From: a virus
IMG/VR virus record: IMGVR_UViG_3300049215_000041
Coordinates: 1-39,685 of that record
DNA length: 39,685 nt
Direction: 5' to 3' (one strand)
Shown here in pieces: positions 16,357-39,685 of this stretch. The notes under the pieces were generated by a model. It did no database searches. It saw only the letters and a program-made list of their open reading frames with translations, and was not told the origin of the DNA. Every line of letters starts with the position of its first letter. The stretch's first letter is position 1. The position numbers were made by a program, and so were the translations under genes.

Positions 16357-16620
16357 TTACGAAAATACTGCTTTTCTTTTGAATTTGTCCGGCAGGCTGG
16401 TGATCTGCGTGCCGCCCAGGTAGAGATACCCGCCGACAGACAGACCGTCCGGCAGGCTGGTGATCTGCGTGTCACTCAGGTCGAGCGAGCCGCCCACGGT
16501 CAGGCTGTCCGGCAGGCTGGTGATCTGCGTGCCGCCCAGGTCGAGAGTACCGCCGACAGACAGACCGTCCGGCAGGCTGGTGATCTGCGTGTTCCGCCAA
16601 TTATGCGCAATAATCGACAC
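16357..16620 (-). CDS. Short leucine-rich-type repeat protein
   Basis: 87 aa; the ATG at 16620 directly follows the stop of the upstream gene. It contains about 3.5 repeats of 20 residues with consensus TQITSLPDGLSVGGTLDLGG. Each repeat pairs an LP turn with an LDL strand, like the simple LRR-type solenoid repeats seen in BspA-like and other bacterial repeat proteins. The short tail KFKRKAVFS is basic. At DNA level the repeat is an almost exact 60-bp tandem. It is too short for a full solenoid, so it may be an expanding or contracting binding module. Role unknown. Confidence 0.65.
   Translation of the reverse strand: MSIIAHNWRNTQITSLPDGLSVGGTLDLGGTQITSLPDSLTVGGSLDLSDTQITSLPDGLSVGGYLYLGGTQITSLPDKFKRKAVFS
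16387..16591. repeat. 60-bp tandem repeat within LRR-like gene
   Basis: Units start at 16387, 16447, 16507 and 16567, each opening with gtccggcaggctggtgatct; the last is partial. Units differ by only a few bases, so copy number probably varies by slippage or recombination in 20-residue steps without breaking the frame. Confidence 0.92.
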
Positions 16621-18621: not shown

Positions 18622-19052
18622 TCCTTCATCCCTCCAATCTCGAATATCTCATAGAATGCCTCTTCAAACGGGTGCATCACACGCGCCGTGCTGCGATTGC
18701 TCGGCATCAGCGGCAGGCCAAGCGCCGCGTCTTCAATCTCGCATAGTAGGCCGGGTGTCGCCTCCCACAGTACCGGGCGCGCGCAGACGGCGTACAGCGG
18801 GCAGTACACCAGCGTCGTGCCGTTGCCGCCCGTCACACAGCCCGCCGGTATCCAGCCGATGCGGGCAGTCATAATCTCGGCGTAGGTGGCGCGGCGCTTG
18901 CCGGAAGTCTCGACGGCCTTGTGATTGCGGTGGCGGCTGCGCGAATTGGTGCAGGCGCGGCACCATGACTGCCGCTGGCCGCGATCCGCCCGCACGTCGA
19001 AGGCGGCTTCGGGCTTCGTCTTGCCGCAGTGGACACAGCGCTTATTATTCAT
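18618..19052 (-). CDS. HNH-like zinc-finger protein (no clear nuclease motif)
   Basis: 144 aa; start overlaps the previous stop (TAATG). The N terminus (KRCVHCGKTKPEAAFDVRAD, then WCRACTNSRSRHRNHKA) is a two-knuckle zinc domain like that in front of many phage HNH nucleases ('C..C.k..p...F......r...C..C'). A second half with YCPLYAVCARPVLWEATPGL has more Cys. I see no intact HNH triad, so this is probably a DNA-binding relative rather than a working nuclease. Confidence 0.6.
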   Translation of the reverse strand: MNNKRCVHCGKTKPEAAFDVRADRGQRQSWCRACTNSRSRHRNHKAVETSGKRRATYAEIMTARIGWIPAGCVTGGNGTTLVYCPLYAVCARPVLWEATPGLLCEIEDAALGLPLMPSNRSTARVMHPFEEAFYEIFEIGGMKE

Positions 19053-19777
19053 TATTCCACCTCACCGCGTAGATATTGCATGAGCCTGTCCGTCTGCCAT
19101 TGAATCTCGGCGTCCCTGGCGGCGGCCCAGGCGGCGTCCATGGCGGCGTCCCCGGCGGCGGCCCAGGCGGCGTCCCAGGCGGCGTCCCCGGCGGCGGCCC
19201 AGGCGGCGGCCCAGGCGGCGGCCCAGGCGGCGTCCCTGGCGGCGGCCCAGGCGGCGGCCCAGGCGGCGTCCCTGGCGGCGGCCCTGGCGGCGGCCCAGGC
19301 GGCGTCCCAGGCGGCGTCCCTGACGGCGTCCATTTCTTGATCTGTGACGTTACCATTGGCGAAGGCGCGAGCAACGACAATAGCATTAATGCTTCTCTCG
19401 TCCGGCTTATCAATTAACGCCAATGCACGTTCCGCACAATCACAAGCAAACAACCGCGCAGTTTTATCATTCCAGGTAGTCAAGCGATATAAAAGCCGCG
19501 CCTTGCGTACAACAATCTTATCTGGCGCGGCCTCAACGTCGCCCTTATATTCTGCGACAAACAGCGCCGGGCCAAGCCATTGAAGCACGTCACCCACTCG
19601 GAACAGATGATAGCCATTCTCACAAGCAACCAAAACACCTTCAATAGGCTTCATCCATTTTCCGGGCTTCGTGGCCGTTGGCAAATGCCAACCACCGCGC
19701 CCCGCATGGTGACAGCTTCCGTCCTCATTAAGCACTTTGAACAAGGTTGCGTCCGTCAAATCGTAATGCGTAGTCAT
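19052..19777 (-). CDS. Phage/actinobacterial-type protein with Ala-Trp helical repeats
   Basis: 241 aa; CGGAGAG upstream of the ATG at 19777. Residues 1-110 form a globular part: a Trp-rich 'GGWHLP' turn, GKWMKPIEGVLVACENGYHLFR and VLQWLGPALFVAEYKG. A helical domain follows (RLFACDCAERALALIDKPD). Residues about 150-225 are repeats of AAWAAA/ RDAAWDAAW with a periodic Trp or Arg, then WQTDRLMQYLRGEVE. Similar globular-plus-Ala-repeat proteins are known in phages and actinobacteria without assigned function. The repeats likely form a long amphipathic helix or coil. Confidence 0.68.
   Translation of the reverse strand: MTTHYDLTDATLFKVLNEDGSCHHAGRGGWHLPTATKPGKWMKPIEGVLVACENGYHLFRVGDVLQWLGPALFVAEYKGDVEAAPDKIVVRKARLLYRLTTWNDKTARLFACDCAERALALIDKPDERSINAIVVARAFANGNVTDQEMDAVRDAAWDAAWAAARAAARDAAWAAAWAAARDAAWAAAWAAAWAAAGDAAWDAAWAAAGDAAMDAAWAAARDAEIQWQTDRLMQYLRGEVE
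19108..19334. repeat. GC-rich short tandem repeats coding Ala/Trp helix
   Basis: Units of about 9-15 bases (gcggcgtcc, ctggcggcggcccag) repeat across roughly 225 bp. All three frames on both strands stay open, which creates collagen-like shadow frames (Gly-Pro or Pro-Gly repeats). The real frame encodes the AAWAAAR/DAAW repeat. Copy number is expected to vary. Confidence 0.85.
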
Positions 19778-19808: not shown

Positions 19809-20081
19809 TTAATCCCGCCCCATAATAAACATATCGTCCGGTTTCGCCGTCAGGCTTTCCGCCAGCCATTCCGGCCCTGTCGTCGCGCCGCAGTCCGGGC
19901 AGCGCGTCACAATCGTCAGCCGCCCATTCACGTGCGTGGCGGCGCTGACAAACCACCCGCTGCGGGCATCGAGCTGTACATTGAATAGCCGGTGGCAGCC
20001 GTCAGTGCCACAGAAGCGCGTGGCGAATGTGGAGTCCGGCTGTTTGCGCGGGATTGGCGCGCGGAGATCTGCGCTAGGCAT
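19809..20081 (-). CDS. Zinc-finger-type small protein
   Basis: 90 aa. Contains FCGTDGCHRLFNVQLDARSG and later VTRCPDCGATTGPEW, two Cys pairs about 35 residues apart. This zinc-ribbon pattern resembles TFIIS/com-like proteins. It overlaps the end of the replication gene and may be coupled to it. Its stop lies inside a short hairpin. Confidence 0.6.
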   Translation of the reverse strand: MPSADLRAPIPRKQPDSTFATRFCGTDGCHRLFNVQLDARSGWFVSAATHVNGRLTIVTRCPDCGATTGPEWLAESLTAKPDDMFIMGRD

Positions 20082-20931
20082 TGGCGGCCTCCGATTCAGC
20101 TATGACGGTGAATGGCGCGTCAGCAAACAGTTGCGCAGCCGCCCGATTGAATACGATAGACACTCGCTTGTTAAATCTCTCGGCCTGGCGGGCGTCGATG
20201 GCGGTGATTACCATAACGCCATTCTCAAATCGCAGCGCCTGGGCTTTCTTGTATTCGTTGGCAACCTCGGAAGGTAATTGCCGCAAAGTGTCAGAAAGAA
20301 GAGCCGCCCATTTCTGGTTAATCTCAGGGGAAATCTCTGGTGTATTCTCAGTATTTGTATTGGCTTCCAATCCAATAGCCTGTCGGTTTCCATTCGGCGG
20401 CCTATCGGTTTCAAATCCTACACCGTCCCCGATTCCAATCGCATGCCTATCGGTTTCAATCCCAATAGGGGGGTATGTTATTTCGATTACTTTATCGGCA
20501 AACAACTGCACGAATAATACGTTTCCCAATTTGACGCCACCCACATTCACAGTAAGAAAATGTTTTTTAATCAGCGCTTTATCTTCAAGCCTGTCTGTGG
20601 CGTCTGCAACTTGAAACTTAGTAAAACCAAACAGGTCAGCGAATGCCTGATAACTACGCTGCAACATTTCGCCCTTGAATTTCTTTCGATAGCCGATATG
20701 TCGTCCTGTGTCCTCATCTCTGATTTCAATAGGGCGATACCAGTACACAATATCGGCCAGGATCATCATCGCCACAAGGTCAGGCTTGCCGCGTGTCTCA
20801 CGCTTACCAATGGGCAAGCGAAGCTCTGGCGCGTTATACCATGAATGCGGGATAATGTTGCCGACAAACTCCACGCCCGTCAGCGCCATTACGGCTTCAT
20901 TGCCCTTGATATCATAGCCACGCTGTTTCAT
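20074..20931 (-). CDS. Replication initiator (winged-helix + DnaA-N-like domain)
   Basis: 285 aa; the start overlaps the preceding stop (ATGA). Residues about 30-150 form a winged-helix region: YRKKFKGEMLQRSYQAFADL, TKFQVADATDRLEDKALIKK and a beta wing VGGVKLGNVLFVQLF. A low-complexity linker (about 155-195) is encoded by tandem iterons. The C-terminal 80 residues (WAALLSDTLRQLPSEVANEY, then GVMVITAIDARQAERF) resemble the DnaA N-terminal domain that recruits helicase. This is the design of lambda O-like/phage primosomal initiators, where the origin lies inside the initiator gene. Confidence 0.72.
   Translation of the reverse strand: MKQRGYDIKGNEAVMALTGVEFVGNIIPHSWYNAPELRLPIGKRETRGKPDLVAMMILADIVYWYRPIEIRDEDTGRHIGYRKKFKGEMLQRSYQAFADLFGFTKFQVADATDRLEDKALIKKHFLTVNVGGVKLGNVLFVQLFADKVIEITYPPIGIETDRHAIGIGDGVGFETDRPPNGNRQAIGLEANTNTENTPEISPEINQKWAALLSDTLRQLPSEVANEYKKAQALRFENGVMVITAIDARQAERFNKRVSIVFNRAAAQLFADAPFTVIAESEAANA
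20361..20463. repeat. Iteron array, candidate replication origin
   Basis: Five direct copies related to TCGGTTTCAATCC start at 20361, 20383, 20405, 20428 (weak) and 20450, a spacing of 22-23 bp (two helical turns). They lie inside the replication initiator gene, as lambda ori iterons lie in gene O. AT-rich sequence flanks the array on both sides. Confidence 0.7.
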
Positions 20932-21409: not shown

Positions 21410-21628
21410 TCAGTCGTTGGCTTCTTCTTTGAATGGGTACAGTTGAAGCATTTCCGCTTCGAATTTGCGGAACTTCTCCTGCATTTCCTTGACGAACTTC
21501 ACATACGCCATCGTCATGGCGGCACTTTCGCCGTCTGAAATTTCGTCAATAAAAAGCTCGGCTGACATTGACATTTCAACATCGGCCCCGTACCACCCAC
21601 CTGAAATCGTTTCATTATGCTTCCACAT
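21410..21628 (-). CDS. Hypothetical small acidic protein behind leader B
   Basis: 72 aa; ATG at 21628 with GGAGG 8 nt upstream. Begins MWKHNETISGGWYGADVEMS and has a helical C terminus (MQEKFRKFEAEMLQLYPFKE). It is the first gene after structured leader B. No family recognised. Confidence 0.6.
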   Translation of the reverse strand: MWKHNETISGGWYGADVEMSMSAELFIDEISDGESAAMTMAYVKFVKEMQEKFRKFEAEMLQLYPFKEEAND

Positions 21629-21643
21629 TGCGTTTACCTCCGC

Positions 21644-21765
21644 AAAATAAAAGCCTCCGCAAATGCTAGGGGGCTACCCGGTTTCCCGGCCCTAGCGCCT
21701 GCGAAGGCGCGGTACACATTATACTCGGTGGAGTAGCCGTCCGCCGTCAGTCATTTCACTGATAC
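21644..21765 (-). promoter_or_regulatory. Structured 5' leader B with GAAA hairpin and terminator
   Basis: The minus strand folds as outer stem GCCTTCGC (21708-21701) with GCGGAGGC (21660-21653), then GCTAGGG (21671-21665) with CCCTAGC (21696-21690). Inside is CCGGGAAACCGGG (21689-21677), where CCGG-GAAA-CCGG is a GNRA-tetraloop hairpin. TTTTATTTTGCGGAGG follows, so the ribosome site comes right after a terminator-like U-tract. GGCTAC (21738-21733) can pair with GTAGCC (21677-21672). A regulatory leader (attenuator or riboswitch type) is inferred. Confidence 0.6.
21718..21723 (-). promoter_or_regulatory. -10-like box B2 (GAGTATAATGTG)
   Basis: TATAAT on the minus strand; ATAATGTG is shared with leader C at the same relative position. 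No good -35. Confidence 0.5.
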
Positions 21766-21770
21766 CATTA

Positions 21771-21780
21771 ATTATAACAA
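21771..21780 (-). promoter_or_regulatory. -10-like box B1 (TTGTTATAAT)
   Basis: TATAAT on the minus strand with TTGT upstream, placed just after the preceding gene. A start here would include the full leader B with its pairing arm at 21738-21733. Confidence 0.45.
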
Positions 21781-24075: not shown

Positions 24076-26343
24076 TTAGTCCTGCCAAAGCGTATCGGCG
24101 AACAACGGAAGGGCGGTCTGATAACTACCCTCGTCTGCCGCCAGCGCCATGTGTTTTTGCATCTGGCGATAGTAACTGGGCTTTAGCTCGCACATCACCG
24201 CGCGGCGCTTATTTTTAACGGCTACATAACCCGTGCTGCCCAATCCGCCGAATGGGTCAAACACCAATTCGTCAGGATTGGAAAACAGGATCACAAGACG
24301 GCGGATAACCTCAAGCTGCAGAGGCGCGACGTGCTTCTCGTCCGGCGTCTCTTTGGCGACGCGGGTATTGAGCGTTTCGGTTTCTTTGATGCCGTACCAG
24401 ATAGGACGTGCCCATGAAATCCAATCATCCTTTGTCGCCTCGCCATTATCCAGGGGCTTCACGGGCGTTTCATTATCGCCGGGCTTGTTGAAAATAAGTA
24501 TATAGTCGGCCAGTGCCGGGCGCAGCATCAGGCTATCGCGCTCCATTGAAGCGAACAACAGCCCGCGTGATTTAGTGCGGATAGCCTGGGCCTGGGGATC
24601 TTTATCGATACACACCTCGCCATAGTAAACCCAGCCCTTATCAATGAACTGGCGAATGACATCACCGCGAAAGTCTTTCAGCCCGATATAACCATCATAG
24701 ACTTTCGTGGCCGGAACCTGAGCCACATGCACGCAGCAATTGCGGCCCGGCTTTGTCACCCGAAGAAGCTCTTCGATGATAATCTGAAAATGCTCAAAGA
24801 ATTGCTCGGCGCTGCGGCTGTTACCAAGATCGCGCTCGGTCGGGCTGTAGGTATACAGGCTCATAAATGGCGGCGAAAAGATAGACAGCCCCACAGTATC
24901 GCTGGCAATTTCGCGGATACGCTCACAGCTATCACCCAGCATGATCCGGTAGCGATCTGTTGTTTTGTCCTCGGTTGTATATTCGAAATTATCTGATGCA
25001 CCTTCAAGCTCCGCCATTTGATCGGCCTGGACTTCGTTGATCAATTCATCGCTCATGTTTTTAGCCTCAGTTTCTTTCCGTTTGACATTTTCAAGGATAA
25101 CGCTCTCGACATGCGAAAGCACAATATAGATATTGACGGGCTGTTTCTGGCCGAAACGATAGGAACGGCGCACCGACTGATAATAGCTTTCATAGCTATC
25201 ATTCATACCCATGAATATCTGATTGGCGCAGTTCTGCAAATTGATACCAAAACCGGCGATCGACGACTTGGTAATCAGCACGCGATATTTGCCATCCTGG
25301 AAATCCTCAATGCCCTGAGCCTTGACTTCCGGCTTATCGCTGCCGGTAATCACCAGCGCGTCCGGGATAGCCTGTTTCATGGCCTGTTCTTCTTCATTGA
25401 GGCCAACCCATACAATCCATTGATCGTCCGGACTATCATTTACCAATTCAGCCGCCAGTGCTACCCGGTCAGACAACGAACCGCGCCGCACGTTATGCCG
25501 ATCCTGAATACCCTTAAGGCCGGTATTGAAGAGCTGGCCTTCCGGCGTATATTCAAAATCAACCCACTGGGGAATGATGTTAAGCGGTGGCAGGATATAT
25601 CCATCATCATCGAAACCGATATCGCTAGGATGGCGTACACTCATGCCCCACTGCGCCAGCCATTTAAAGAAGGGACGACGCGCATGGGATTTAAGCCGCC
25701 AGCTATCGGTAGACTGTTTGCCATTGGTACGCTTATCTTTTTCATCCTGGGCGTGGACAAAGAAAGACGCCAGCATATCCGCACGGCTCATCACACCCAA
25801 GAATTGAGAATGCATACCCAGCTCGACGATATCATTCGGGGCCGGTGTTGCGGTGCAGCACAACCGATACGGCACGCCGATAAACATCTCGGTGAGCAGC
25901 TTGCGCGTTTTTCCATCCAGCGATTTAAGGATGCTGCTTTCATCCAAAACCACCGCGCCGAAATCGGAGGGATTGAAGTGCTGAACCATTTCATAGTTGG
26001 TGATTGTGATCGTGGTTGTGGGTTGTCCTCCGCGACTGTAGACAATCTCAAGTCCGAGTTTTGTAGCCTCGCGTACCGTCTGACGTGCAACTGAGAGCGG
26101 CGCGACAATCAAAGTCGTCTGACCAATGAGCCGCGCCCATTCGAGCTGCATCATGGTTTTTCCAAGTCCGGTATCGGCAAAAATGGCGCACCGACCGCGC
26201 TTGACGGCCCATTTAACCAGCGCCTTCTGAAAGTCAAATAGCAGTGGATTGACATCGGCAACTTCAATATCAAAGCCAGATGGGGCGATATCAAAGCGCT
26301 TTGTCCTCAAAAACTCATGATAGGCTTTCGTTCGTTTGTCCAT
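24076..26343 (-). CDS. SNF2-type helicase - DNA methyltransferase fusion
   Basis: 755 aa. Residues 1-430 form an SF2/SNF2 ATPase: Walker A FADTGLGKTM (55-64), VVLDESSIL (131-139), CCTATPAPND (162-171) and motif VI VRRSYRFGQKQP (391-402). Residues 460-755 form a beta-class DNA methyltransferase: GLSIFSPPFMSLYTYS (motif IV, SPPF at 490-493) and VFDPFGGLGSTGYVAV (motif I, about 694-709), in the permuted order IV then I. SPPF suggests N4-cytosine or N6-adenine methylation. No nuclease domain is seen, so it is not a complete type ISP restriction enzyme. It may modify phage DNA while tracking along it, or act in replication. It follows the MazG-like gene in the operon. Confidence 0.88.
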   Translation of the reverse strand: MDKRTKAYHEFLRTKRFDIAPSGFDIEVADVNPLLFDFQKALVKWAVKRGRCAIFADTGLGKTMMQLEWARLIGQTTLIVAPLSVARQTVREATKLGLEIVYSRGGQPTTTITITNYEMVQHFNPSDFGAVVLDESSILKSLDGKTRKLLTEMFIGVPYRLCCTATPAPNDIVELGMHSQFLGVMSRADMLASFFVHAQDEKDKRTNGKQSTDSWRLKSHARRPFFKWLAQWGMSVRHPSDIGFDDDGYILPPLNIIPQWVDFEYTPEGQLFNTGLKGIQDRHNVRRGSLSDRVALAAELVNDSPDDQWIVWVGLNEEEQAMKQAIPDALVITGSDKPEVKAQGIEDFQDGKYRVLITKSSIAGFGINLQNCANQIFMGMNDSYESYYQSVRRSYRFGQKQPVNIYIVLSHVESVILENVKRKETEAKNMSDELINEVQADQMAELEGASDNFEYTTEDKTTDRYRIMLGDSCERIREIASDTVGLSIFSPPFMSLYTYSPTERDLGNSRSAEQFFEHFQIIIEELLRVTKPGRNCCVHVAQVPATKVYDGYIGLKDFRGDVIRQFIDKGWVYYGEVCIDKDPQAQAIRTKSRGLLFASMERDSLMLRPALADYILIFNKPGDNETPVKPLDNGEATKDDWISWARPIWYGIKETETLNTRVAKETPDEKHVAPLQLEVIRRLVILFSNPDELVFDPFGGLGSTGYVAVKNKRRAVMCELKPSYYRQMQKHMALAADEGSYQTALPLFADTLWQD

Positions 26344-26354
26344 TATCTTCTCTC

Positions 26355-26582
26355 TTAGTAGTTGGTATTTTCAAGCCACTTGACAGCCACCGCGATCACC
26401 TGGACAAGCTCGTCGCGGATTTCAAGTTGGTGATCTTCATTAATGGCTTTTGCAACCTCGCCCACTTCTTCGGTCAGGATGGTCAGCCATTGGAAGTCCG
26501 GCAGCGATTGAGGTGTGCCCCATTTATCATCCTGGGCGCGGCGCTCCCGAATAACCGCATTCACTATCTTCACGAAGTCCAT
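26355..26582 (-). CDS. MazG-like nucleotide pyrophosphohydrolase domain protein
   Basis: 75 aa; ATG at 26582 with GGAG upstream. The sequence RRAQDDKWGTPQSLPDFQWL, LTEEVGEVAKAI and IRDELVQVIAVAVKWLE shows the family pattern: QD.KWG, an EExxE-type metal motif and a later xxDEL.QV. The length fits a stand-alone MazG-like domain of phage type. It likely hydrolyses nucleoside triphosphates, perhaps (p)ppGpp or non-canonical dNTPs. First gene after leader C. Confidence 0.78.
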   Translation of the reverse strand: MDFVKIVNAVIRERRAQDDKWGTPQSLPDFQWLTILTEEVGEVAKAINEDHQLEIRDELVQVIAVAVKWLENTNY

Positions 26583-26591
26583 AAGTCACTC

Positions 26592-26715
26592 CAAAAGGAA
26601 AGCCCTCCGGTTTGGACTGGCGATCCCGGTTTCCCGGCAGTCCGCCCCGGAGGGCAGTTTCCACATTATTAGCACAGTCCCGGATCGCTACGCGACTGCT
26701 CAGTATTCACTGATG
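26592..26715 (-). promoter_or_regulatory. Structured 5' leader C with GAAA hairpin and terminator
   Basis: Outer stem GCCCTCCGG (minus 26655-26647) with CCGGAGGGC (26610-26602), inner stem GGACTG (26643-26638) with CAGTCC (26619-26614), and CCGGGAAACCGGG (26637-26625) containing CCGG-GAAA-CCGG. The U-rich TTTCCTTTTGGAG follows, with the ribosome site merged to it. GCGATCC (26688-26682) can pair with GGATCGC (26626-26620). The architecture matches leader B although the stems differ in sequence, which is the signature of a conserved RNA structure. Confidence 0.6.
26665..26671 (-). promoter_or_regulatory. -10-like box C2 (TAATAATGTG)
   Basis: Minus strand GCTAATAATGTGG; ATAATGTG is shared with leader B. 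Confidence 0.4.
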
Positions 26716-26720
26716 ATGGT

Positions 26721-26728
26721 AGTATACA
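26721..26728 (-). promoter_or_regulatory. -10-like box C1 (GTGTATACT)
   Basis: Minus strand AGTGTATACTACC just after the preceding gene; TATACT is shared with the other phage promoters. A start here includes the full leader C. Confidence 0.5.
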
Positions 26729-26753: not shown

Positions 26754-27116
26754 TCACGCTTCCGGTGCGTCCACGTCCTGCGCAAGTGCGGCTTCCGCAT
26801 ACATGGCAATCTTCATTAGTGCCGCAGCATATAAATCGCCCTTAACCGGGGCGTCCGCATAGTCGCGAATGTATGTCAGCGCCTCTCGCAGCCGCTTGCA
26901 CTCGGCCTCGGCGGCGTCGGCGCAGACAAGCAACTTTATGCCAATGCCCACGGTGCATGTGGTGGTGTGTACAATCATTTCGGGAGTTTTCGCATCCGCG
27001 TCACAAACTCCACAATACCAAAATGTGCAATTGGGTATAGCTTCACCATAACCATCTTCACAATCGGCTTCATCTATGACATGTCCGTAATGCTTCAAAA
27101 TAGATTCGTTATCCAT
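26754..27116 (-). CDS. Cys-containing hypothetical protein
   Basis: 120 aa from the ATG at 27116 (GGAGAGTGAAGCA upstream). Contains DEADCEDGYGEAIPNCTFWYCGVCDADAK-type Cys spacing in residues 15-45, VHTTTCTVGIG, and a helical end (AEAECKRLREALTYIRDYAD). One or two zinc sites are possible. Similar 'coil plus Cys' proteins occur earlier in the operon. Function unknown. Confidence 0.6.
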   Translation of the reverse strand: MDNESILKHYGHVIDEADCEDGYGEAIPNCTFWYCGVCDADAKTPEMIVHTTTCTVGIGIKLLVCADAAEAECKRLREALTYIRDYADAPVKGDLYAAALMKIAMYAEAALAQDVDAPEA

Positions 27117-27136
27117 TGCTTCACTCTCCACGAATG

Positions 27137-37684: not shown

Positions 37685-39685
37685 TATGTCACCCCCGCAA
37701 ACTTAACGCCCCGCGCCGCGCCTTCGCGCATGATTTCATCAAACATCTGCGCCGCATTGGTGACACCGGGCAGCGTGATATAAAACACCGCTCCGCCACC
37801 AACGCCGCCCGTGGCAGACGGCCCGGCGAGTGATGGCGCTATTCCGGCGGCAAGACTGGGTGCGGCAGCGGCGGGCTTCATCATAGTATTGACGGCATTT
37901 CCCATTGAGGCTGTCATGTCGCCCACGAGGTTATTAACGCCAATAACAAAACCCATGCCGATATCTTCACCAATCGCCATTGTTTTCTTTGATGGCGACC
38001 AGGATTGGGCAGCGGCTTTAGCGGCGGCAATAGCAGCCACCACTGCCGAAACAAGTGCATCGATCAAGCCCTTAGCCACCTTAGCAGCCCCATCTACCAG
38101 CCCTTGTCCAAGCGCTGCACCTGCAGCGGAAGCTGCACCGATAAGGCCATTCACCCCATCAATCGCGCCATTCACATATCCCACCACATCGCCCACAATA
38201 TTTACAAGCGGCGCAGTTAATGCTCCAAGCACGGACGTGGCCCATGCCTGCGCGGCGCTGACGGCATTACCAACCGTGGCCGTGATAATTGTGCCCGCAT
38301 TGGCTAGAATGCCGCCCCACTCGGCAAGCACCTGCGAGAAATCCACCCCGCCGAATGCCTGCGATACGCTGTTGGCAAAACTCGTGAGCGTATTCAGGAA
38401 TGTATCAAGCGCGCCCTTAAAGTTGCCCGCAAGAATTTGCGTAATGCTGGCGACCAGCCCGGAGAATATGCCCACAATCCCCGCGATAGCCTGCCCCAGC
38501 ACCTTACCGGCAACCTCAAGAATAGGGCCGAGTATCGTCAGGATATTAGATATCGCCGGGCCAATATTCTGTAAAAAGGCGTTGACGTTGGCGAGAATTT
38601 GCGGCGATTCGCTGGCGAAGGCGTCCATAAAACTTTTTGCGATACTGCCGCCAATCTCTTGCAGCTTGGGCAACACAAGCGTATTGAAATCGTCCAGTGC
38701 TTTTTTAATAGAGCCGGGCAATTCCATTAATGGCCCTTCGATAGAATGGACAAATGCGCCCAAATCCACGGCACCAATATGAGCTAATGAATCTTCAAGC
38801 GTTATTAATATCTCCTGAATATTGCCACTTGCCAGGGCATTTGCCATATAGCCAAGAGCTTCTGAAAAGTGCATAGTCCACTGTGCGGCATCCATGATCG
38901 CATTCTTGAACCCCGGCAAATACATATTGGCCGCATTCATAATGTGTTCGTTGAATATGCCAGCCCCGCCCAGGATATCGCCCAGCCCTTGCGCGAAATC
39001 GATAACCCCCATCATCGCGCCGCTCATGCTGTCGATAAATTCAAAAATAGCCTCTTTATTCTTGGCCCAGAAGTCGGTAAGGATAGGCAGCAACTTGCCG
39101 CCGATTTCCTCGGCCACATTCTTGAGTGCATTTTGCAGAATTTCAAGCTGGCCCGCGAATGTATCGCCCGCCGCTTCCGCCGATCCGCCAAACTCTTTGT
39201 TGAGTTCGTCCATAATCACCTTTTGCGCGCCCATTAAATCGCCGCTTTCCTGCATTTTCTTTATCATTGCGGCCTGAGCTTCGGTGAATTGCACACCGAC
39301 ACGACGCAGGGCAGTCATACCCGTGATAGGATCATTAAGGGCCTTTCCCAATTGGATAGCACTTGATTTCAAGTCTTGCCCAAGTGCCACACTCATATCA
39401 AGCGCCATTTTGGTGGCCTGTGGAAGCGCATCATGTCCAATCGACGTGAATGTCATTAGTAGATTGGTTGTCGATTGGATAGCCTCATCTGAGAATGGCA
39501 CCATATTGGCATAGGCATTAGCCATATTGTTGATTTGCTGCGAAGTATAGCCCGCCGCGCCACCCGTCGATTGGATAACCGCGTTTGTCTGCGCCATAAC
39601 CTTTTGGCTGTCTGCCGCTTTATTGACAGCATAAGCCAGCCCGGCCCCAACGGCGGCAAGGCCAGCGGCGGCGGCACCCACGGCG
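37684..39685 (-). CDS. Tail tape-measure protein, main part (continues at 276-1)
   Basis: Contig-end part of the tape-measure gene; the last 172 bases duplicate 1-172, so the true continuation is base 39513 to 37684 after 276-1. Features: ADSQKVMAQTNAVIQSTGGA, ALGQDLKSSAIQLGKALNDP, TGMTALRRVGVQFTEAQAAM, several hydrophobic Ala-rich helices (for example AAGAALGQGL, VSAVVAAIAAAKAAAQ), and AQSWSPSKKTMAIGEDIGMG at the C terminus, all characteristic of TP901-like tape measures. The downstream hub gene overlaps its stop. A soluble lytic domain is not seen. Total length about 701 aa. Confidence 0.93.
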   Translation of the reverse strand, partial: AVGAAAAGLAAVGAGLAYAVNKAADSQKVMAQTNAVIQSTGGAAGYTSQQINNMANAYANMVPFSDEAIQSTTNLLMTFTSIGHDALPQATKMALDMSVALGQDLKSSAIQLGKALNDPITGMTALRRVGVQFTEAQAAMIKKMQESGDLMGAQKVIMDELNKEFGGSAEAAGDTFAGQLEILQNALKNVAEEIGGKLLPILTDFWAKNKEAIFEFIDSMSGAMMGVIDFAQGLGDILGGAGIFNEHIMNAANMYLPGFKNAIMDAAQWTMHFSEALGYMANALASGNIQEILITLEDSLAHIGAVDLGAFVHSIEGPLMELPGSIKKALDDFNTLVLPKLQEIGGSIAKSFMDAFASESPQILANVNAFLQNIGPAISNILTILGPILEVAGKVLGQAIAGIVGIFSGLVASITQILAGNFKGALDTFLNTLTSFANSVSQAFGGVDFSQVLAEWGGILANAGTIITATVGNAVSAAQAWATSVLGALTAPLVNIVGDVVGYVNGAIDGVNGLIGAASAAGAALGQGLVDGAAKVAKGLIDALVSAVVAAIAAAKAAAQSWSPSKKTMAIGEDIGMGFVIGVNNLVGDMTASMGNAVNTMMKPAAAAPSLAAGIAPSLAGPSATGGVGGGAVFYITLPGVTNAAQMFDEIMREGAARGVKFAGVT
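39514..39685. repeat. Terminal direct repeat, right copy
   Basis: Identical to 1-172 except T at 39621 against C at 108. It encodes the same part of the tape-measure protein with Lys instead of Glu at residue 57. Confidence 0.95.

Follow-up and report, generated by a model that had tools for sequence, protein, structure and literature searches.

A recurrent phage leader with a predicted intramolecular kissing helix, a candidate transcription attenuator before replication genes

Introduction

In the pT181 repC attenuator an antisense RNA kisses a hairpin of the leader. The RNase III sites of T7 have long stems with an asymmetric internal loop and lie between early genes, and hairpins at the 5' terminus protect mRNA. 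For phages only a few control elements made of RNA alone have been described. The put RNA of HK022 is about 70 nt long, is made up of two stems and a minor-groove triplex as seen by cryo-EM, and binds the beta' zinc-binding domain of RNA polymerase (PMC9378689). The operator of T4 gp32 consists of a pseudoknot of about 28 nt plus UUAAA repeats (PMC535899). In our literature search put and the gene 32 operator came nearest to the leaders described here and neither has their design; the coverage of that survey is incomplete and a prior description is possible.

The present study deals with leader C, a predicted 5' leader RNA in the window, that is, the whole stretch of DNA analysed, an IMG/VR virus record of 39,685 bases. 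Like the intrinsic-terminator attenuator leaders of bacterial operons, including those of the pT181 repC type, it is promoter-proximal and has a terminator-like hairpin and a U-tract before the first gene, and the outcome should depend on an interaction made by a loop. It differs in that the kissing partner is no antisense RNA; it lies within the same leader and the contact would be intramolecular. In the window and in three relatives this partner is moreover the 3' bulge of the hairpin and not its apical loop. Neither a leader peptide nor an antisense gene was found at these leaders. What appears to be new here is the unusual intramolecular kissing design; the kind of element, a cis-acting leader or attenuator, is already known.

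Results

Nearly all genes of the window lie on the minus strand. The two ends of the record carry a direct repeat of 172 nt, 99% identical (1-172 and 39514-39685), and the contig, though classed as linear, probably represents a genome that is circular or has terminal redundancy. Leader C (26726-26582, minus strand, from sequence and fold) sits between a 125-aa ORF (26754-27131) and a 75-aa gene (26355-26582, minus strand) whose product matches Pfam MazG (E 6.7e-5, above the curated cut-off) and PHROG 2831, as expected from the MazG-like gene that an initial annotation of this DNA had placed there. The second gene (24076-26343, minus strand) encodes a SNF2-type helicase/DNA methyltransferase of 755 aa (PHROG 16, E 1e-71). 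Homologues of this gene are preceded by homologous leaders in the contigs or loci G015, L136, L143 and L152, and by a variant leader in G001.

All elements of leader C lie on the minus strand. A promoter-like -10, TATACT (26721-26726, putative promoter), aligns in position with the extended -10 of leader B, a second copy described below, and lies 6-7 nt ahead of ATCAGTGAA in both. It is followed by a 5' hairpin, UCAGU-GAAU-ACUGA (26700-26713), which is seen in sequence and fold and has a counterpart in leader B, and by the hairpin H1 (26674-26699). The 8-nt loop of H1, UAGCGAUC, is unpaired in the minimum-energy fold and contains the kissing strand a, GCGAUC (26683-26688). Behind a conserved linker, AAUAAUGUG (26662-26670), common to both leaders, comes a long hairpin (26602-26655) with an outer stem of 9 bp (GCCCUCCGG/CCGGAGGGC, 26647-26655/26602-26610), an inner stem of 6 bp (GGACUG/CAGUCC, 26638-26643/26614-26619) and an apical CCGG-GAAA-CCGG (26626-26637). 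Both stems had been proposed before and are borne out by the minus-strand sequence and the fold. On the 3' side the hairpin has a bulge a', GAUCGC (26620-26625), which is unpaired in the fold and complementary to the H1 loop at all six positions, seven with the neighbouring C/G. The U-rich tract UUUCCUUUU (26593-26601) directly follows the stem and is weaker than that of leader B; it merges, as had been described, with the ribosome site, running into the Shine-Dalgarno GGAG (26589-26592) and then the AUG at 26582.

Leader B (21776-21629, minus strand, from sequence and fold) contains every element of leader C in the same order, with stems that differ in sequence and pairs that are compensated. 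These are an extended -10, TG-T-TATAAT (TGTTATAAT, 21771-21776, putative promoter), the H1 hairpin CGGCGG-ACGGCUACU-CCACCG (21726-21746) with the kissing strand a, GGCUAC (21733-21738), the linker UAUAAUGUG (21715-21723), a long hairpin (21653-21708) of 11 outer and 7 inner bp with the apical CCGG-GAAA-CCGG (21678-21689) and the bulge a', GUAGCC (21672-21677), and a U-tract like that of an intrinsic terminator, UUUUAUUUU (21644-21652), all on the minus strand. H1 of leader B has one stem mismatch and was placed, with its strand a, by a constrained fold. It is less certain than H1 of leader C since in the unconstrained fold part of its loop pairs elsewhere. Downstream of leader B are a 72-aa gene from the ORF list (21410-21628, minus strand), a MUG113/endonuclease-like gene and a replication-initiation gene (20074-20931), the latter two assigned by PHROG 270 and 681 and Pfam MUG113.

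The initial annotation had noticed that GCGAUCC upstream complements GGAUCGC in leader C, that GGCUAC and GUAGCC stand at the equivalent place in leader B, and that AUAAUGUG precedes the stem in both; all of this is present in the sequence. The upstream pairing is best read as kissing, the H1 loop and the 6-nt bulge on the 3' side of the long hairpin being complementary. A related 'leader A' had also been listed, but no third copy appeared: every scan of the window gave B and C alone.

As a promoter for the leaders TATAATGTG was considered and rejected: TTGACA is well placed in G001, but leaders B and C have no -35. For this reason, and because a conserved hairpin and the kissing strand lie upstream of TATAATGTG, the RNA probably starts upstream of it. 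HDV, twister and pistol ribozymes were also set aside, as their layout differs and Rfam gave nothing.

Minimum-energy folding recovered the outer, inner and apical parts of the hairpin, with the bulge unpaired, in both copies (z -3.2 and -2.0). In an energy-ranked scan that demanded H1, a kissing match, a long hairpin, a U-tract and a ribosome site, leader B scored -52.9 and leader C -51.5, beyond the best value of -46.8 in the control of 11.5 Mb of first-order Markov shuffles. The arrangement of the leaders is above chance. The 13-mer, CCGGGAAACCGGG, is present at just two sites of the 39,685-base record, in leaders B and C as had been stated, and it was feared that it might be a common mobile repeat without structure. 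Common it is in part: CCGGGAAACCGG is frequent in viral DNA, with at least 120 matches in viral contigs, and the 13-mer on its own is weak evidence. The sampled occurrences of CCGGGAAACCGG outside the window did not have the arrangement that was applied to the leaders, none combining a bulge, upstream pairing and an outer stem. The 13-mer is local to this phage, and the apical loops of the relatives are AUAAC, GAAA or UUUC. TAATGTG with CCGGGAAACCGG was tried as a signature of the family and rejected, its 1 strict and 43 relaxed matches being nearly all chance. Loose genome-wide kissing descriptors and a descriptor based on score only were not specific, with no clear excess over their controls.

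Two loci outside the window are uncertain. One, L083:960-1125 (plus strand), came top of the energy-ranked scan (L083:1083) with a strong hairpin and a 6-nt match, and overlaps a 57-aa ORF. The other, L329:736-860 (plus strand), has a 6-nt loop-loop match, and the product of its next gene reads like a ParB-type protein.

The bulge-type design was found in three other IMG/VR phages: G015, with two copies, L346 and L458. A descriptor scan of loci chosen for their similarity to helicase or terminase yielded the first copy in G015 (locus L090), which ends directly at the start of the homologous helicase gene, and the copy in L346, which lies between the helicase and the next gene. Because of this position in L346, the equivalent gap after the helicase of G015 was inspected without any demand for pairing. 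The second copy, G015-2, was sought there by position alone, and when folded by itself it shows the loop UGUAGAAC, 8 nt long, and GUUCUAC bulged out on the 3' side, the two being complementary at 7 of 7 positions; the counterparts in L346 are UGUCGAAC and GUUCGAC. The genes that follow G015-2 and the L346 copy are O-like initiators and DnaC-like loaders. In sequence, both G015 copies and L346 have TTGACW-17-(-10) with H1 near +1. A pattern scan for promoter plus H1, in which the partner strand was not required, gave 53 viral matches, and the three with an 8-nt partner were two copies already known and L458. In this unrelated phage the fold shows the same loop and bulge (8/8 complementary), and the likely start codon is about 90 nt from the element. 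In bacterial genomes, none of the 120 matches listed for this type of pattern, with H1 as in G015, had a match of at least 7 nt. The leaders gave no blastn match among isolated phages, and the class was not seen in the scanned parts of two Flavobacterium phage isolates and a Pseudomonas phage.

Over the six bulge-type copies 36 of 36 kissing pairs are Watson-Crick, and five of the six positions vary. When loops and bulges were re-paired in every permutation, the true pairing alone out of 720 reached 36 of 36, a figure that overstates the independent evidence because complementarity had served as a condition or filter in finding G015-1, L346 and L458. The cleaner tests of the kissing pairing are G015-2 and the two window copies, which were found through the 13-mer. 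The motif AUAAUGUG is absent from G015, L346 and L458, so that what the bulge-type relatives keep is the architecture, not AUAAUGUG or the 13-mer.

A broader form was sought from the terminator side, by taking intrinsic terminators in noncoding DNA that are followed by ATG in the fetched viral loci (n=170). An upstream hairpin loop with complementarity of at least 6 nt to the terminator interior was present in 22 of these 170 against 6.9 expected, a proportion that says nothing on phages at large, since most of the loci had been chosen for helicase similarity. Chance should account for about a third of the 22, and one match, in L586, was judged to be chance on inspection. Random re-pairing of loops and terminators reached at most 17, with none of 1000 rounds at 22; at 7 nt there were 8 matches against 1.6 expected, a number reached once in 1000 re-pairings. 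A direction control, complement without reversal, gave 4 matches against 20 in the true direction. In L136, L143 and L152 a leader of the broader form immediately precedes the helicase and has a fold more stable than shuffles; in L143 and L152 another copy follows the helicase, as arranged in G015. In most members of the broader class the partner is the apical loop, and the bulge form of the window is thus one of two layouts. The leader of G001 (L063:14426-14560, minus strand), which is the strict signature match, stands before a helicase homologue with TTGACA-16-TGTAAT and CCGGGAAACCGG. Its H1 loop GGAGAAAG and terminator loop CUUUCUCC are complementary over 8 nt; judged from sequence, it is likely to be a loop-loop variant only, with a different layout.

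Discussion

The computation establishes the architecture of the leaders, their recurrence, the covariation and the position before helicase and initiator genes. On balance we favour, with some reserve, the reading of leader C as a 5' leader RNA that acts in cis on a replication operon of the phage and attenuates its transcription via kissing. We infer that an RNA is produced here, that it can terminate at the U-tract and that kissing shifts the outcome in one direction, possibly with a trans-acting factor. Downstream of the promoter the RNA would fold H1 with an exposed loop and then the long terminator-like hairpin, which ends at the U-tract and the ribosome-binding site. The H1 loop and the 3' bulge of this hairpin would form an intramolecular kissing helix of 6-8 bp, and in many relatives the partner would be the apical loop of the terminator. 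The strand a' would leave RNA polymerase ahead of the closing 3' arm and meet the waiting H1 loop, and H1 could capture its partner strand at the moment when termination is decided. Whether the kissing helix has formed or not would then set the odds of a stop at the U-tract against read-through into the replication genes. Capture may help or hinder termination.

The leaders precede the first genes in window B and C, both copies of G015, L346, L136, L143 and L152, where the promoters are consensus-like only. Window B, G015-1 (after 2 nt), L136, L143 and L152 have a strong U-tract; that of window C and L346 is weak, and G015-2 and L458 have none. Termination therefore cannot be the whole story for every member, and the weak or missing U-tracts of some bulge-type members leave room for a role like that of put or for a translational one, both of which deserve to be taken seriously. 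No mutually exclusive alternative fold is evident, since kissing and stem formation are compatible on paper. Attenuation is the simplest working model.

Because relatives of the same design precede the replication genes of other phages, the leaders look like an undescribed RNA-switch family that times replication proteins. It is a tentative proposal, which may well not hold, that such 'kissing attenuators' are widespread in phages, with a matched, copy-specific pair timing each replication operon by RNA folding alone or together with a phage factor. Rfam has no family that matches the leaders at its gathering threshold, and its other matches were at chance level. From the window alone a phage-encoded riboregulator family acting on three operons had been suggested; the recurrent structured leader, the covarying arms and the cis position at operon starts agree with this, and two such operons were found. 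If the proposal is true, a terminator loop or bulge matched to a 5' hairpin would be a compact, programmable form of transcription control. Its recurrence before helicase and initiator genes would give a handle on replication timing in poorly known environmental phages, and the copy-specific covarying pairs make compensatory-mutation tests simple.

Other readings were weighed against attenuation. The folded leader could bind RNA polymerase, as put does, and make it ignore later pauses and terminators, the hairpin then not being a regulated terminator. This is rather unlikely for leader C. In HK022, putL and putR are also two cis-acting copies per phage with two stem-loops near early transcript starts, as here at two operons, and members without a U-tract (G015-2, L458) fit better than under attenuation. 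However, put is about 70 nt of two stems with a minor-groove triplex and no kissing helix, as compared to about 110 nt with a covarying kissing helix in the leaders. In many relatives a complete intrinsic terminator immediately precedes the start codon, which is odd for an antiterminator, and the leader sequence varies freely among phages.

It is also unlikely that the kissing fold is a translational operator, where a phage replication protein would bind its own mRNA and repress it. In favour of this, the genes concerned serve replication, the Shine-Dalgarno follows immediately on the fold in window B and C, G015-1 and L346, and the hairpin of G015-2 reaches the AUG. The pseudoknot recognised by T4 gp32 lies 5' of the ribosome site of its gene (PMC535899), and the T4/RB69 gene 32 operator resembles the leaders in that it has tertiary pairing and immediately precedes the ribosome site of a gene for phage replication. 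That operator, however, is a pseudoknot of about 28 nt with UUAAA repeats, whereas the leaders have two hairpins over about 110 nt, a terminator-like 3' end and several operons; UUAAA repeats are absent from the sequence after the hairpins of leaders B and C. The Shine-Dalgarno region offers the outer 5' strand of leader B a second possible partner (-15.8 against -17.5 kcal/mol), but this alternative exists in leader B only, and a switch by Shine-Dalgarno sequestration was rejected as energetically plausible there alone. Moreover, the likely start codon of L458 is about 90 nt away, and the loop sequences differ between the copies of one phage.

Protection or cutting of the replication mRNAs by a passive 5' stabiliser or an RNase III processing site is quite improbable. 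Stems of such length, with an asymmetric internal loop and placed between early genes, do recall the T7 sites, but neither role requires a conserved, covarying helix between a loop and a bulge or between two loops, nor a terminator U-tract. A metabolite riboswitch, as the initial annotation suggested from the compact fold, the unpaired AUAAUGUG conserved between the two copies and the MazG-like gene downstream, is very improbable, as the Rfam riboswitch matches are at chance level, the unpaired sequence is not kept across G015, L346 and L458, and the downstream genes have replication in common, not a metabolite.

Some further observations concern other parts of the window. At 30200-30075 on the minus strand a promoter-like sequence, TTGCATTATAATGG, is followed about 100 nt on by a strong terminator (10-bp stem and T6, 30101-30078), and a short sRNA of the phage could arise here. 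A 9-mer shared with the bulge of leader C, GGATCGCCA, lies within it, so that pairing in trans with the H1 loop of leader C is conceivable in principle. Three repeats of CCGGCAGGCTGGTGATCTGCGTG at 60-bp spacing are found at 16386-16592, in a short ORF region. A 12-bp tandem repeat of about 18 copies (19072-19379) lies within the ORF 19052-19777 on the minus strand and gives a 4-residue repeat in the phage protein.
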